This document shows, piece by piece, positions 13,275 through 17,935 of a stretch of 38,826 nucleotides of DNA. The position numbers and the translations under genes were made by a program. This DNA is from Acidimicrobiales bacterium (GTDB taxonomy: Bacteria; Actinomycetota; Acidimicrobiia; Acidimicrobiales; SZUA-35): contig JAHDFH010000010.1 in NCBI GenBank assembly GCA_020628305.1, forward strand, positions 10,362 through 49,187, in the 5' to 3' direction. Each line of letters opens with the position of its first letter. The first letter of the stretch is position 1. The notes under the pieces are model-generated. The model had not been told where the DNA came from, made no database searches, and was given only the letters and a program-made list of their open reading frames with translations.

Positions 13275-14255
13275 TTAGCTCTGATTCATGCCATCAAAAA
13301 TATGACTAACCGAAGTGTCTTCAAACACTGCTCTAATAGCGTTTGCAAGCACATCTGCGATCGTCAGTACCTCAAGTTTGTCAAAAATCTTTTCCGATGG
13401 CAGGGGTAACGTGTCGGTGATGATGACTTTTTCAAACTCGGAGTTCTTCAGACGATCAACCGCTGGACCGGAGAACAAACCGTGGGTCGCTGCTCCAATA
13501 ACTGATGAAGCCCCTTTACTCATCAGCAGGTCAGCACCTTGGCAGATTGTTCCAGCAGTGTCGATCATGTCATCAATCATGACGCAACGTTTGCCTTTGA
13601 CTTTACCCACGATTGTCTTAGCCTCTGTTGCGTTTTTCTTACCCTTGACTCGGCGTTTGTGAATAATTGCGAGCGAGGCATCCAGCTGTTGGGCATAACG
13701 TTCTGCAACCTTCACACGCCCAGCATCTGGGGATACCACAACTAGGTCTTCCTTGTATTCTCTGAGCCGTTCTACCAGAATTGGCATGGCAGTCAAATGG
13801 TCGACAGGTCCATCAAAGAAACCTTGGATCTGGCCAGTGTGCAAATCAACAGACACTAGACGGGTTGCGCCTGCAACTTTGAACATATCAGCTAGCAATC
13901 GAGCTGTGATGGGTTCCCGGCCTTCAGATTTGCGGTCTTGGCGACAGTAGCCATAGAACGGCGCAACAGCGGTGATTCTCTTTGCAGAGGCCCGCCTTGC
14001 CGCATCCACCATAATAAGGTGTTCCATTATCGCATCGTTTACGCTTCGCCCATCTAACTCGCCGTGGGCTTGCACGATAAAGACATCTGAGCCACGAACT
14101 GATTCAGAGAACTGACAGTGAGTTTCTCCGCTCAAGAACTGACTAACCTTAGCTTCAGTAACTTCAATGCCTAGACTGTCGGCAATTTTCTGGGTCAGAT
14201 GCTCACTTTGACGTCCGGAAAAGAGATGAAGCTTCTTAGTTGTTACGACTTTCAT
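13275..14255 (-). CDS. prs: Ribose-phosphate pyrophosphokinase
   Basis: LFSGRQSEHLTQKIADSLG, PFYGYCRQDRK, VSVDLHTGQIQGFFDGPVDHL, VVVSPDAGRVKVAERYA, MIDDMIDTAGTI. Confidence 0.97.
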   Translation of the reverse strand: MKVVTTKKLHLFSGRQSEHLTQKIADSLGIEVTEAKVSQFLSGETHCQFSESVRGSDVFIVQAHGELDGRSVNDAIMEHLIMVDAARRASAKRITAVAPFYGYCRQDRKSEGREPITARLLADMFKVAGATRLVSVDLHTGQIQGFFDGPVDHLTAMPILVERLREYKEDLVVVSPDAGRVKVAERYAQQLDASLAIIHKRRVKGKKNATEAKTIVGKVKGKRCVMIDDMIDTAGTICQGADLLMSKGASSVIGAATHGLFSGPAVDRLKNSEFEKVIITDTLPLPSEKIFDKLEVLTIADVLANAIRAVFEDTSVSHIFDGMNQS

Positions 14256-14303: not shown

Positions 14304-15347
14304 TCAGACCCGTGAGCCGCTTTGCAATATCGAATATGGTTGCGCTCTACTTCCTTCAGTAAACACAGAAGCCTCTGCAGAGACAAACTCTAAGACCGCA
14401 TCTTGTTCAACCGAGCAATCCACCAACTTTACATTAGGCCCAATCTGACAGTCAGCTGCTATGGCTGTTGAGCCTCGCAGGTAAGTATTAGGGTGAATAA
14501 CCGTTCCCGGGGCGATGGCAACAGTTACATCAATGTAGGTAGCATTTGGATCAACGATATGCACACCATTTTCCATGTGCGCCCTATTGATAACTTGCCT
14601 TTTTCTGTGAGCCGCTTGAGCCAGTTTGGCCAAATCAGTCACTGGAGAAATTTCTTCAGCGAATGTCTCAACAGTATCGCAGCAAACCTTGTTGCCAGTA
14701 GCTGCCACTGTCGGTACAAGGTCAGAGAACTGAACAGCAACGCTTAACGGAGTACTTCTACGAGCACATGGTCCGAGAATGTCGGCGGAGATAGCAAAAA
14801 CATTGTGCGAAATTTCGACCTGGTCAAGTTCATCAAGCATGCCAAGAGACTCGCCTAGATCTTGATCAACAATTTCAGCAACGCCACCTTTTTCATTGTG
14901 AAGCACAATCCCAGGGAGGCCCTCAATCGAATCTTTTGAACCAAAAAAGCAGAGCCCTGCATTTGAGCTTTCTTTGAATGTAAATAGCGAGGCAAAATAC
15001 TCGGCCGTTAGGAAAGGTTGAGCAGCAGACACCAAAACCAAGTCCGTCGCAAACTTATCAGAGTCTAAGAATGCCAAACAATCAGCTAGCGGGACTCCTC
15101 GAAAGTCACTGTCAATATCTAAAAAATTCAATCCAGCTTTGAATTCATAATCAGCCACCGCTCCTTGAGCTATGTTAATTCGATCTGTTGAGCCAAGCAC
15201 AAGAATTTGTTCCACGTTCGCTGCAATCAGGGCTTCGATCAAATGAACAAGCAGCGGCAGGCCAGCAACCACTCTAGAGACTGGGTGTTGGATGGTTTGC
15301 GAGGGTTCCGACAGAGAAACAATGGCTGCTCTTGATCTTGTAGTCAT
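14304..15347 (-). CDS. GlmU-like (degenerate N-acetylglucosamine-1-phosphate uridyltransferase homologue), truncated, probably inactive
   Basis: AGLPLLVHLIEAL, VAEIVDQD, RRQ-type hinge AQAAHRKRQVINRAHMENGVHIVDPNATYIDVTVAIAPGTVIHPNTYLRG and GPNVKLVDCSVEQ match GlmU. Position next to prs matches glmU-prs synteny. ORF is open to ATG 15371; ATG 15347 (MTTRSRAAIV) is the likelier start. Confidence 0.75.
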   Translation of the reverse strand: MTTRSRAAIVSLSEPSQTIQHPVSRVVAGLPLLVHLIEALIAANVEQILVLGSTDRINIAQGAVADYEFKAGLNFLDIDSDFRGVPLADCLAFLDSDKFATDLVLVSAAQPFLTAEYFASLFTFKESSNAGLCFFGSKDSIEGLPGIVLHNEKGGVAEIVDQDLGESLGMLDELDQVEISHNVFAISADILGPCARRSTPLSVAVQFSDLVPTVAATGNKVCCDTVETFAEEISPVTDLAKLAQAAHRKRQVINRAHMENGVHIVDPNATYIDVTVAIAPGTVIHPNTYLRGSTAIAADCQIGPNVKLVDCSVEQDAVLEFVSAEASVFTEGSRAQPYSILQSGSRV

Positions 15348-15397
15348 TACACTCCTTTCGGTCAGACGCATCCCAACTTAAATCTCAGCTCAGAACT

Positions 15398-16885
15398 ATG
15401 CTGAAGAGGGTGAGCGCAGCTGAGGACAAAACCGCTAACACCCCAGGAGCCAACGGCCATCCAAAGATCCACTCAGGCCCTGTGAGATGGATGCATTGGC
15501 TGAACTTTCCTCTAATTGCGCTGATGGTATGGAGCGGCCTACGAATCTACTGGGCTGATCGCCAGGGTCTTTACAGCTTGGGAATCGGCGACAAGGACTT
15601 CGAACTATTTCCCATGTGGTTTGACGATGCCTTCAATTTAAGGCAGCGCCTGGCTAGAGGCATGGCCTACCATTTCACCTTCGGTTGGTTCCTCGTTCTA
15701 AATGGGGCACTGTTTCTGATATACACTGCACGGAGTGGCCACTGGCGAGAGATTTTCCCGGCCAAAGGTGCTCTCAAAAACGCTCTTCAGGTGGTGGCCC
15801 ACGACCTTAAGCTTTCCAAGAAGCCCCTTCCTGAACAGAGCAAGTACAACGCAGCCCAACAATTTGCATACACCGGGATTCTGGTGATCACCACCATCAC
15901 CGTCTTGACTGGTTTCGCTATTTACAAACCGACTCAGCTCAGTTGGCTGACCTCGATATTTGGCGGATACGAAGCCGCAAGATGGATTCATTTCACCACA
16001 ACAATAATGATCGCTGGATTCTTCGCAATTCACATTGCCCAGGTCATCAAACAAGGCTTGCCAGGATTTCTGGCAATGGTGACCGGCTTCTATCGAGGCA
16101 AAGACGAAGACCATGTAAATTATGATGCTGTTACCCAGACGGCATCTACAGCGGACATAAAAGGCAGAGAGAGAAGAAACCTTATTGTTGGTGCCGCCGG
16201 GACATTGGCGACTCTCGGCACATTAAAATGGCTCGGCGAATCAATTCGGACGGGAGATCGAATTCCAGCGGTCCTAAGGAGCGGCCATCGCTTCAACGAA
16301 GCCATTTGGAAAAGGCTTCATCGCGATTCGGCCAAGGCACCGGAGTTCTCTTTCGAAGAAAGCTCCATGATGCGCGTCAATGGACGCCACGGACTGCGCA
16401 CAGATGTGCCAAATGATTGGGCTGTTGAAGTATTCGGACCAGATGGCCAGTTAATCAAGACCGTCTCTTTGGACCAGATAAAAAGCCTCCCAAAGGTCGA
16501 ACATACTGTCGAACACAAGTGTGTAGAAGGCTGGAGCCATGTCGTTACTTGGGGCGGCACCACCTTTGCTGACTTTGTTAAATGGCTAGTACCTGAGATT
16601 GAGGAGCTTCCGCAATATGTCAATCTCGAGTGCCCTACTGAGCCTGATGACGATCACTACTACGTCAGTCTCGATATCGAATCAATGATGCATCCGCAGA
16701 CGCTCTTAAGCTATGAGATGCAACGAGCTGATCTCCTCCCAGAGCACGGCGCTCCACTGCGCCTTACCACTCCCCTAAAGTACGGCATCAAACAGATAAA
16801 GCGAATCGGCTCGATAAGTTTTTCTAACGAGCGTGGGAGAGACTATTGGGAAGAGCGAGGCTACGATTGGTACTCTCACCTATAG
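15398..16885 (+). CDS. Fusion of di-heme cytochrome b561-type membrane domain with molybdopterin-dependent oxidoreductase (sulfite oxidase/MsrP fold)
   Basis: N-terminal TM region with heme-ligand-like His (RWMHW, MAYHFTFGW, RWIHFTTTIMIAGFFAIHIAQ). C-terminal NDWAVEVFGPDGQLIKTVSLDQIKSLPKVEHTVEHKCVEGWSHVVTWGGTTFADF...LRLTTPLKYGIKQIKRI is typical of the oxidoreductase Mo-binding domain. Confidence 0.85.
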   Translation: MLKRVSAAEDKTANTPGANGHPKIHSGPVRWMHWLNFPLIALMVWSGLRIYWADRQGLYSLGIGDKDFELFPMWFDDAFNLRQRLARGMAYHFTFGWFLVLNGALFLIYTARSGHWREIFPAKGALKNALQVVAHDLKLSKKPLPEQSKYNAAQQFAYTGILVITTITVLTGFAIYKPTQLSWLTSIFGGYEAARWIHFTTTIMIAGFFAIHIAQVIKQGLPGFLAMVTGFYRGKDEDHVNYDAVTQTASTADIKGRERRNLIVGAAGTLATLGTLKWLGESIRTGDRIPAVLRSGHRFNEAIWKRLHRDSAKAPEFSFEESSMMRVNGRHGLRTDVPNDWAVEVFGPDGQLIKTVSLDQIKSLPKVEHTVEHKCVEGWSHVVTWGGTTFADFVKWLVPEIEELPQYVNLECPTEPDDDHYYVSLDIESMMHPQTLLSYEMQRADLLPEHGAPLRLTTPLKYGIKQIKRIGSISFSNERGRDYWEERGYDWYSHL

Positions 16886-16897
16886 CTAGGCGGTAAT

Positions 16898-17602
16898 GTG
16901 GATACGATTCTGGCTCCGGCCAAGCTCACCCTGTCTCTTAAAATTACTGGTGTCAGACCTGACGGTTTTCACCTTCTAGCTGCTGAGATGGTCACGGTCG
17001 ACCTGTGTGACGAACTAACCATCAGTCCAGGCCCAAGAGTAGTTGATCTTGTTGGGCCTCACGCAAACGTAGTAGATCCCAAGAGTAACTCTATCCTCGA
17101 CGCCCTGGAGCTTGTAAATGCCACGCGCAGCGTGCGCCTCACAAAAAACATCCCGGCTCAAGCTGGGCTTGGTGGAGGGTCCGCAGATGCCGCAGCGATC
17201 TTGCGTTGGGCTGGATTTAAAGATTTACGAACCGCAGCAAAGCTTGGGGCAGATGTCCCCTTCTGTGTTGTTGGGGGACAAGCTAATGTAACGGGAATCG
17301 GTGAAATTGTTGATCCTGTGGAGCTGACACCTGCGAACTTTACGCTCTATTGCCCAAACATTGCTTGTTCAACTCCTGCGGTGTACCAGCATTGGGACAA
17401 ACTCGGAGGACCCAGCGGACAGAACGGCAACGATCTTGAGCCTGCAGTCCTAGACCTGTTTCCAGAGATGCAACAGGCCAAAGAATACCTAGGGAATCTA
17501 ACTGGACTTTCCCCAAGGTTGGCTGGCAGTGGCTCTACATGGTTCGTCGAAGGACACCATGAACAGGCAGACCTGATACTTTGCAGTAGCGTGAAGCTTT
17601 AG
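16898..17602 (+). CDS. ispE: 4-diphosphocytidyl-2-C-methyl-D-erythritol kinase, short form
   Basis: GHMP kinase motifs: APAKLTLSLKITGVRPDGFHLL, IPAQAGLGGGSADAAAILR, RLAGSGSTWFV. GTG start. Confidence 0.88.
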   Translation: MDTILAPAKLTLSLKITGVRPDGFHLLAAEMVTVDLCDELTISPGPRVVDLVGPHANVVDPKSNSILDALELVNATRSVRLTKNIPAQAGLGGGSADAAAILRWAGFKDLRTAAKLGADVPFCVVGGQANVTGIGEIVDPVELTPANFTLYCPNIACSTPAVYQHWDKLGGPSGQNGNDLEPAVLDLFPEMQQAKEYLGNLTGLSPRLAGSGSTWFVEGHHEQADLILCSSVKL

Positions 17603-17611
17603 TATCTGAAT

Positions 17612-17710
17612 TTACTTTTTGTTTCTACGCTGCACACGGGTGCGCTTAAGAAGCTTGCGGTGTTTCTTTTTGCGCATTCGTTTACGACGTTTTTTAATAA
17701 GCGATCCCAT
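17612..17710 (-). CDS. bS22-like small ribosomal protein (AURKAIP1/COX24 domain)
   Basis: Manual translation of the minus strand: [32 protein letters not shown], 32 aa; closely resembles actinobacterial bS22 ([29 protein letters not shown]...). Confidence 0.92.
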
Positions 17711-17810
17711 GACTTTGCAAAGACTAGCCGAGCATTCAAGTTTTCCACCTAATTCATTCAATTATTTGAACCTTTCATGCGGCAGATCCGTTAGAGTATT
17801 GGGGACACCT

Positions 17811-17883
17811 TCGCGGGTAGTTCAACTGGCAGAACACCAGACTTTGAATCTGGGGGTTGGAGGTTCGAGCCCTCCCCCGCGAG
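17811..17883 (+). tRNA. tRNA-Gln (anticodon UUG)
   Basis: TCGCGGG...CCCGCGA acceptor pairs perfectly. Anticodon arm CCAGACTTTGAATCTGG with loop anticodon TTG. T arm GGAGG-TTCGAGC-CCTCC. D arm GTTC...GAAC. Confidence 0.96.
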
Positions 17884-17935
17884 CTTAACCCACATAAATG
17901 CACGCTGATGAAGAGCTTGCTTGCTAGGCTTCTGA

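Follow-up and report, generated by a model that had tools for sequence, protein, structure and literature searches.

The window, a stretch of 38,826 nucleotides, belongs to an Acidimicrobiales genome of 2.36 Mb in 132 contigs (G000, 95% complete). On its minus strand, beside prs, it carries an open reading frame (ORF) related to glmU, the gene for the bifunctional GlcNAc-1-P uridyltransferase/GlcN-1-P N-acetyltransferase. The gene and its neighbors are located as follows:

13275 to 14255, minus strand: prs, the conserved downstream neighbor, 88% identical to its counterpart in G002, a genome of the same genus
14304 to 15347, minus strand: most likely translated part of the GlmU-like gene, 347 amino acids (longer annotated frame to 15371, 355 amino acids)
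16898 to 17602, plus strand: ispE, the conserved upstream neighbor, on the opposite strand in the window

The ORF at 14304 to 15371 is open throughout its 355 codons, confirming the long, uninterrupted and coherent frame described in the original prediction, and its base composition by codon position is coding-like. An AAAGGAG Shine-Dalgarno sequence lies just 5′ of the ATG at 15347, making this the preferred start. Only 48 bp separate the stop codon from prs, and therefore no lost C-terminal end is hidden downstream; a search for frameshifts in the gene also found none. On the other side (15398 to 17884), the block of ispE and tRNA-Gln runs on the strand opposite to that in relatives. Between it and the GlmU-like gene there is a gene for a cytochrome b561/molybdopterin oxidoreductase fusion, only ∼50 bp from the start of the GlmU-like gene. 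What used to lie upstream of the GlmU-like gene has thus been rearranged, and the gene keeps its conserved place beside prs.

Pfam gave weak NTP_transf_3 and hexapeptide matches to the ORF and nothing more. NCBIfam GlmU models covered nearly the full protein (PRK14352, E value 4e−35; TIGR01173, 1.4e−23), although the TIGR01173 score of 83.5 bits is far below the equivalog cutoff of 366.85, and Mycobacterium tuberculosis GlmU aligned across residues 31 to 353 (E value, 3.6e−20). An AlphaFold model built from a 38-sequence alignment had a pLDDT of 81, and its best 35 PDB matches were all GlmU. Overall TM-scores against GlmU structures were only ∼0.5 to 0.6, with rmsd of 7 to 9 Å, which a different placement of the two domains in the model could explain. 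Common descent and fold make homology to GlmU certain, and with prs adjoining, the earlier identification of a syntenically placed GlmU homologue stands.

The protein was mapped onto E. coli GlmU numbering, with residue roles that we take from GlmU structures. The places of the catalytic motifs are as follows:

15264 to 15332, minus strand: place of the uridyltransferase signature, residues 14 to 36, SRAAIVSLSEPSQTIQHPVSRVV; equivalents of G14, R18 and K25 missing, low model confidence at residues 25 to 32
15081 to 15119, minus strand: place of the QxxxxGTGHA motif, residues 85 to 97, DIDSDFRGVPLAD; equivalents of Q76 and T82 missing
15009 to 15029, minus strand: place of the GDxPLL motif, residues 115 to 121, SAAQPFL; the equivalent of the Mg-binding D105 is Ala
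14307 to 14345, minus strand: C-terminal end, residues 343 to 355, AQPYSILQSGSRV; the order-wide end point, where other GlmU run on into the acetyltransferase site

The positions of the uridyltransferase active site (R18, K25, Q76, D105, E154, N169 and N227) are occupied by T, R, I, A, D, S and T, respectively. G14, T82 and T199 are replaced by E, V and S, Y197 falls in a gap, and G81 and G140 align with glycines. In the acetyltransferase site R333 is replaced by Q, and K351, H363, Y366, N377, N386 and K392 would lie past the end of the protein. No signature residues were found at shifted positions in the alignment; the loop at residues 25 to 32 had a model pLDDT below 50. The predicted loss of both catalytic signatures was thus borne out by the residue comparison, and the ORF is very probably dead for both GlmU reactions.

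Distribution of the two GlmU activities across the order

All of the syntenic Acidimicrobiales GlmU proteins examined matched profile positions 2 to 344 of 452 and were ∼360 to 375 amino acids long, whereas most genomes of sister orders in the class had a match extending to ∼450, i.e., full length. Since every examined GlmU of the order stops at ∼344, an ancestor lost the acetyltransferase half, and these alignments place the loss at the base of the order or close to it. The short C terminus is therefore the rule for the whole order and no peculiarity of the window gene.

Outside the window's family (f1), the uridyltransferase motifs were intact in the aligned members of the order. The f1 signature resembles IATASGAPMRSERPKPIHLLCGRPM. 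In the 11 f1 sequences compared, R18, E154, N169 and Y197 are gone and N227 mostly so, whereas K25, Q76 and D105 remain. In the window's genus (G000 and G002) the latter three are lost as well. The original prediction had joined the two losses into a single event in the window gene; this view was not supported, as the loss of the acetyltransferase half is shared by the whole order and that of the uridyltransferase residues by the family, leaving only the loss of the last residues to the genus.

The GlmU-like gene had a dN/dS of 0.07 to 0.2 across five f1 genera, ∼1 to 4 times the prs value for the same pairs, and the segments PKP.HLLCG, VEQ and PADxPLL were invariant in the f1 proteins. The gene is clearly under purifying selection in f1 and so does something there. 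Between G000 and G002 the GlmU-like proteins are 31% identical compared with 88% for prs, with dN of 0.81 and 0.08, respectively, and saturated synonymous sites. Identity was 32% in the beta-helix part and 15 to 22% in the N-terminal parts, and the G002 homologue is an independent open frame of 325 amino acids. Constraint within the window's genus is thus weak but not absent.

In other genomes the gene is missing. No GlmU was identified between ispE/tRNA-Gln and prs in G001 (same genus as the window) or in G007, G010 and G018, all within f1, nor in G133, G181 and G098 outside it. In G117, where the region is rearranged, there was no GlmU within 16 kb around prs, and the best glmU match elsewhere in the genome had an E value of 1e−20. 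In a midpoint-rooted tree of one gene, prs, the GlmU-less genomes fell in several separate lineages, and at least three deletions occurred inside f1 (G001, G007 and G010/G018). Such clean deletions at the locus indicate that the GlmU-like gene is dispensable in those lineages.

Supply of UDP-GlcNAc and a candidate uridyltransferase

All 39 near-complete relatives had murA, and glmM was matched in all 61 relatives, so UDP-GlcNAc is still needed, and there was no sign of the changed peptidoglycan synthesis that had been offered as one explanation. In the window's genus, murA (G000:C80:26542-27813; G001:C20:52243-53511) scores ∼100 bits below the rest of the family (328 versus ∼430), which makes it a second peptidoglycan precursor gene that is unusually divergent there.

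With both GlmU active sites lost and the gene deleted in several relatives, UDP-GlcNAc must arise another way. No second glmU was found in G000 at its 95% completeness. The UAP1/AGX-type family (UDPGP, PF01704) was found in 3 of the 61 relatives and is absent from nearly all of f1; its absence from G000 also removes a UAP1-type enzyme as the replacement there. PF00483 has three members in G000. RmlA, encoded beside RmlD, and a glucose-1-phosphate cytidylyltransferase-like paralogue are each better explained as deoxysugar enzymes and were rejected. The third, and by elimination the only one left unexplained by deoxysugar synthesis, is a 273-amino-acid protein related to PDB 3PNN, with an intact signature:

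G000:C15:48130-48948: gene for the 273-amino-acid nucleotidyltransferase, the candidate replacement

The protein matched PDB 3PNN with an E value of 3e−49 (3e−66 with a profile), carries the invariant GLGSRFGGxKQ nucleotidyltransferase signature and the NADD motif intact, and is 73% identical between G000 and G002. Its gene was found in 34 of 37 f1 genomes, and the remaining three are 76 to 81% complete; it is patchy in the rest of the order (5/24, one marginal match left out). Among the four other near-complete members of the order without recognizable GlmU, three carry it (G133, G117 and G181), and G098 has neither gene. Association of the gene with a missing or degenerate GlmU, with G046 (70% completeness) omitted from the counts, gave P = 2e−9 with f1 counted, over genomes that are not phylogenetically independent, and P = 0.09 with f1 excluded. 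In the f22 genomes the gene is present and GlmU is kept in most; its occurrence alongside GlmU in several clades suggests that it was acquired first and that GlmU decayed later. An alternative route to UDP-GlcNAc, as originally proposed, is thus most likely, with this nucleotidyltransferase as the one candidate. That it is the replacement GlcNAc-1-P uridyltransferase has close to an even chance of being correct, phyletic association being the evidence for this function.

The usual f1 neighbors of the gene, a sulfate permease and a menE-like gene, were uninformative. In four genomes of one genus (L217, L220, L223 and L230), a gene of the same type adjoins one for a NamZ-type exo-N-acetylmuramidase, identified by Pfam in one case and by similarity in the other three; this adjacency suggests a link to peptidoglycan amino-sugar recycling. 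In G117 (L262:3393-7309), a 3PNN-type gene, a two-domain GNAT gene and a GH20 hexosaminidase gene lie in a row on the same strand, and the GNAT protein provides a lead to the missing acetyltransferase.

A further observation concerns glmS. In six genomes the gene beside glmM encodes a GlmS of 1,120 to 1,190 amino acids rather than the normal ∼610:

L203:3650-7057 (G000:C9), minus strand: long glmS beside glmM; likewise at L205, L208, L210, L211 and L213

Large insertions interrupt the glutaminase part and flank the conserved C-terminal tail (KTVTVG) on either side. The proteins fall far under the glmS cutoff, yet they retain the catalytic Cys and the tail. As a home for the missing acetyltransferase activity, which would act on GlcN-1-P or on an intermediate before it, the long GlmS revealed neither a GNAT nor any further Pfam domain, and no additional catalytic domain could be recognized, although it may be related to the missing enzyme.

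Interpretation and comparison with known systems

The best explanation, with a probability of roughly 0.6, is a stepwise dismantling of GlmU in the Acidimicrobiales, in which the window gene represents a late stage, a non-catalytic and dispensable remnant after gene displacement. An ancestor of the order lost the acetyltransferase half. In the window's family, the uridyltransferase site was stripped of most residues that bind sugar and phosphate. The window's genus has lost the last signature residues, and the gene has been dropped cleanly in one congener and in several other lineages. The surviving protein would be non-catalytic and dispensable because other enzymes now make UDP-GlcNAc, the uridylyl step most likely being carried out by the 273-amino-acid 3PNN-related nucleotidyltransferase, probably gained before GlmU decayed. 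The fuller picture, in which the order does without a bifunctional GlmU, using a separate acetyltransferase throughout and a 3PNN-type uridyltransferase in f1, with GlmU a repeatedly lost pseudoenzyme, is tentative and falls somewhat short of an even chance.

The selection observed in f1 could also reflect a conserved pseudoenzyme that binds a nucleotide, a sugar or a partner (GlmS or GlmM, for example) and so regulates or scaffolds amino-sugar synthesis, the window's genus needing less of the sequence. The low dN/dS in five f1 genera and the three invariant segments argue for such a protein, as do the frame, the Shine-Dalgarno sequence and the beta-helix part retained in the window's genus. 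However, the gene was deleted at least three times inside f1 and its conservation is very low in the window's genus, making this explanation unlikely. The non-enzymatic scaffold or sensor of the original prediction can accordingly be kept as a possible function in f1, but an indispensable role is contradicted by the repeated clean deletion. A continuing nucleotidyltransferase activity of the f1 protein on a changed substrate is very improbable; K25, Q76 and D105 are indeed kept in the 11 f1 sequences compared, but the same sequences have lost R18 in the phosphate loop, E154, N169, Y197 and mostly N227, and all three kept residues are gone from the window protein. A neutral pseudogene or an assembly artifact is scarcely credible. 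It would account for the dN strongly raised over that of prs, but not for the 355-codon open frame, the open G002 homologue, the coding-like composition or an identity to G002 that persists despite saturated synonymous sites, and the dN/dS in sister genera likewise speaks against a plain pseudogene.

It is rather unlikely that GlmR (YvcK) took over the uridylyl step and that the 273-amino-acid enzyme acts on another substrate, e.g., MurNAc-1-P in recycling. GlmR makes UDP-GlcNAc, an activity reported to be conserved in Firmicutes and Actinobacteria (PMC10128056), and the NamZ gene beside the nucleotidyltransferase gene in four genomes would fit a recycling role. However, a phylum-ancestral gene alone would not explain why GlmU was lost in some lineages only, and the 273-amino-acid gene tracks most of the losses. 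Displacement of GlmU, with the window gene as its remnant, is the preferred reading.

A GlmU that loses one activity, then the other and then the gene, with cell wall genes kept, would mean that GlmU is replaceable. Nearly all bacteria have GlmU, which is usually essential and serves as an antibacterial target. The lineage points to one named candidate for the uridyltransferase and, for the order as a whole, one missing acetyltransferase, and it cautions against annotating these proteins as GlmU. Literature searches on GlmU in Acidimicrobiales, on truncated or pseudoenzyme GlmU and on 3PNN, covering open-access sources and hence weak evidence of novelty, found nothing on this case.

The window protein resembles GlmU (TIGR01173) in descent over nearly its whole length, in fold and in its adjacency to prs, and differs in that all uridyltransferase residues but a glycine or two are replaced and the acetyltransferase half is missing. 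With the truncated GlmU of other Acidimicrobiales (e.g., L031, L032 and L124) it shares the end point at ∼344 of the profile and the neighbors. Unlike the window protein, these have intact uridyltransferase motifs and are presumably uridyltransferases without acetyltransferase activity, comparable to PDB 1FWY, an artificially shortened E. coli GlmU. The candidate replacement is a clear relative of PDB 3PNN, an entry whose title ('Conserved domain protein') gives no function, so that a link to UDP-GlcNAc would be by inference. A precedent for a second, unrelated GlcNAc-1-P uridyltransferase exists in GlmR/YvcK, although in that system it backs up an intact GlmU that is essential for its acetyltransferase (PMC10128056).
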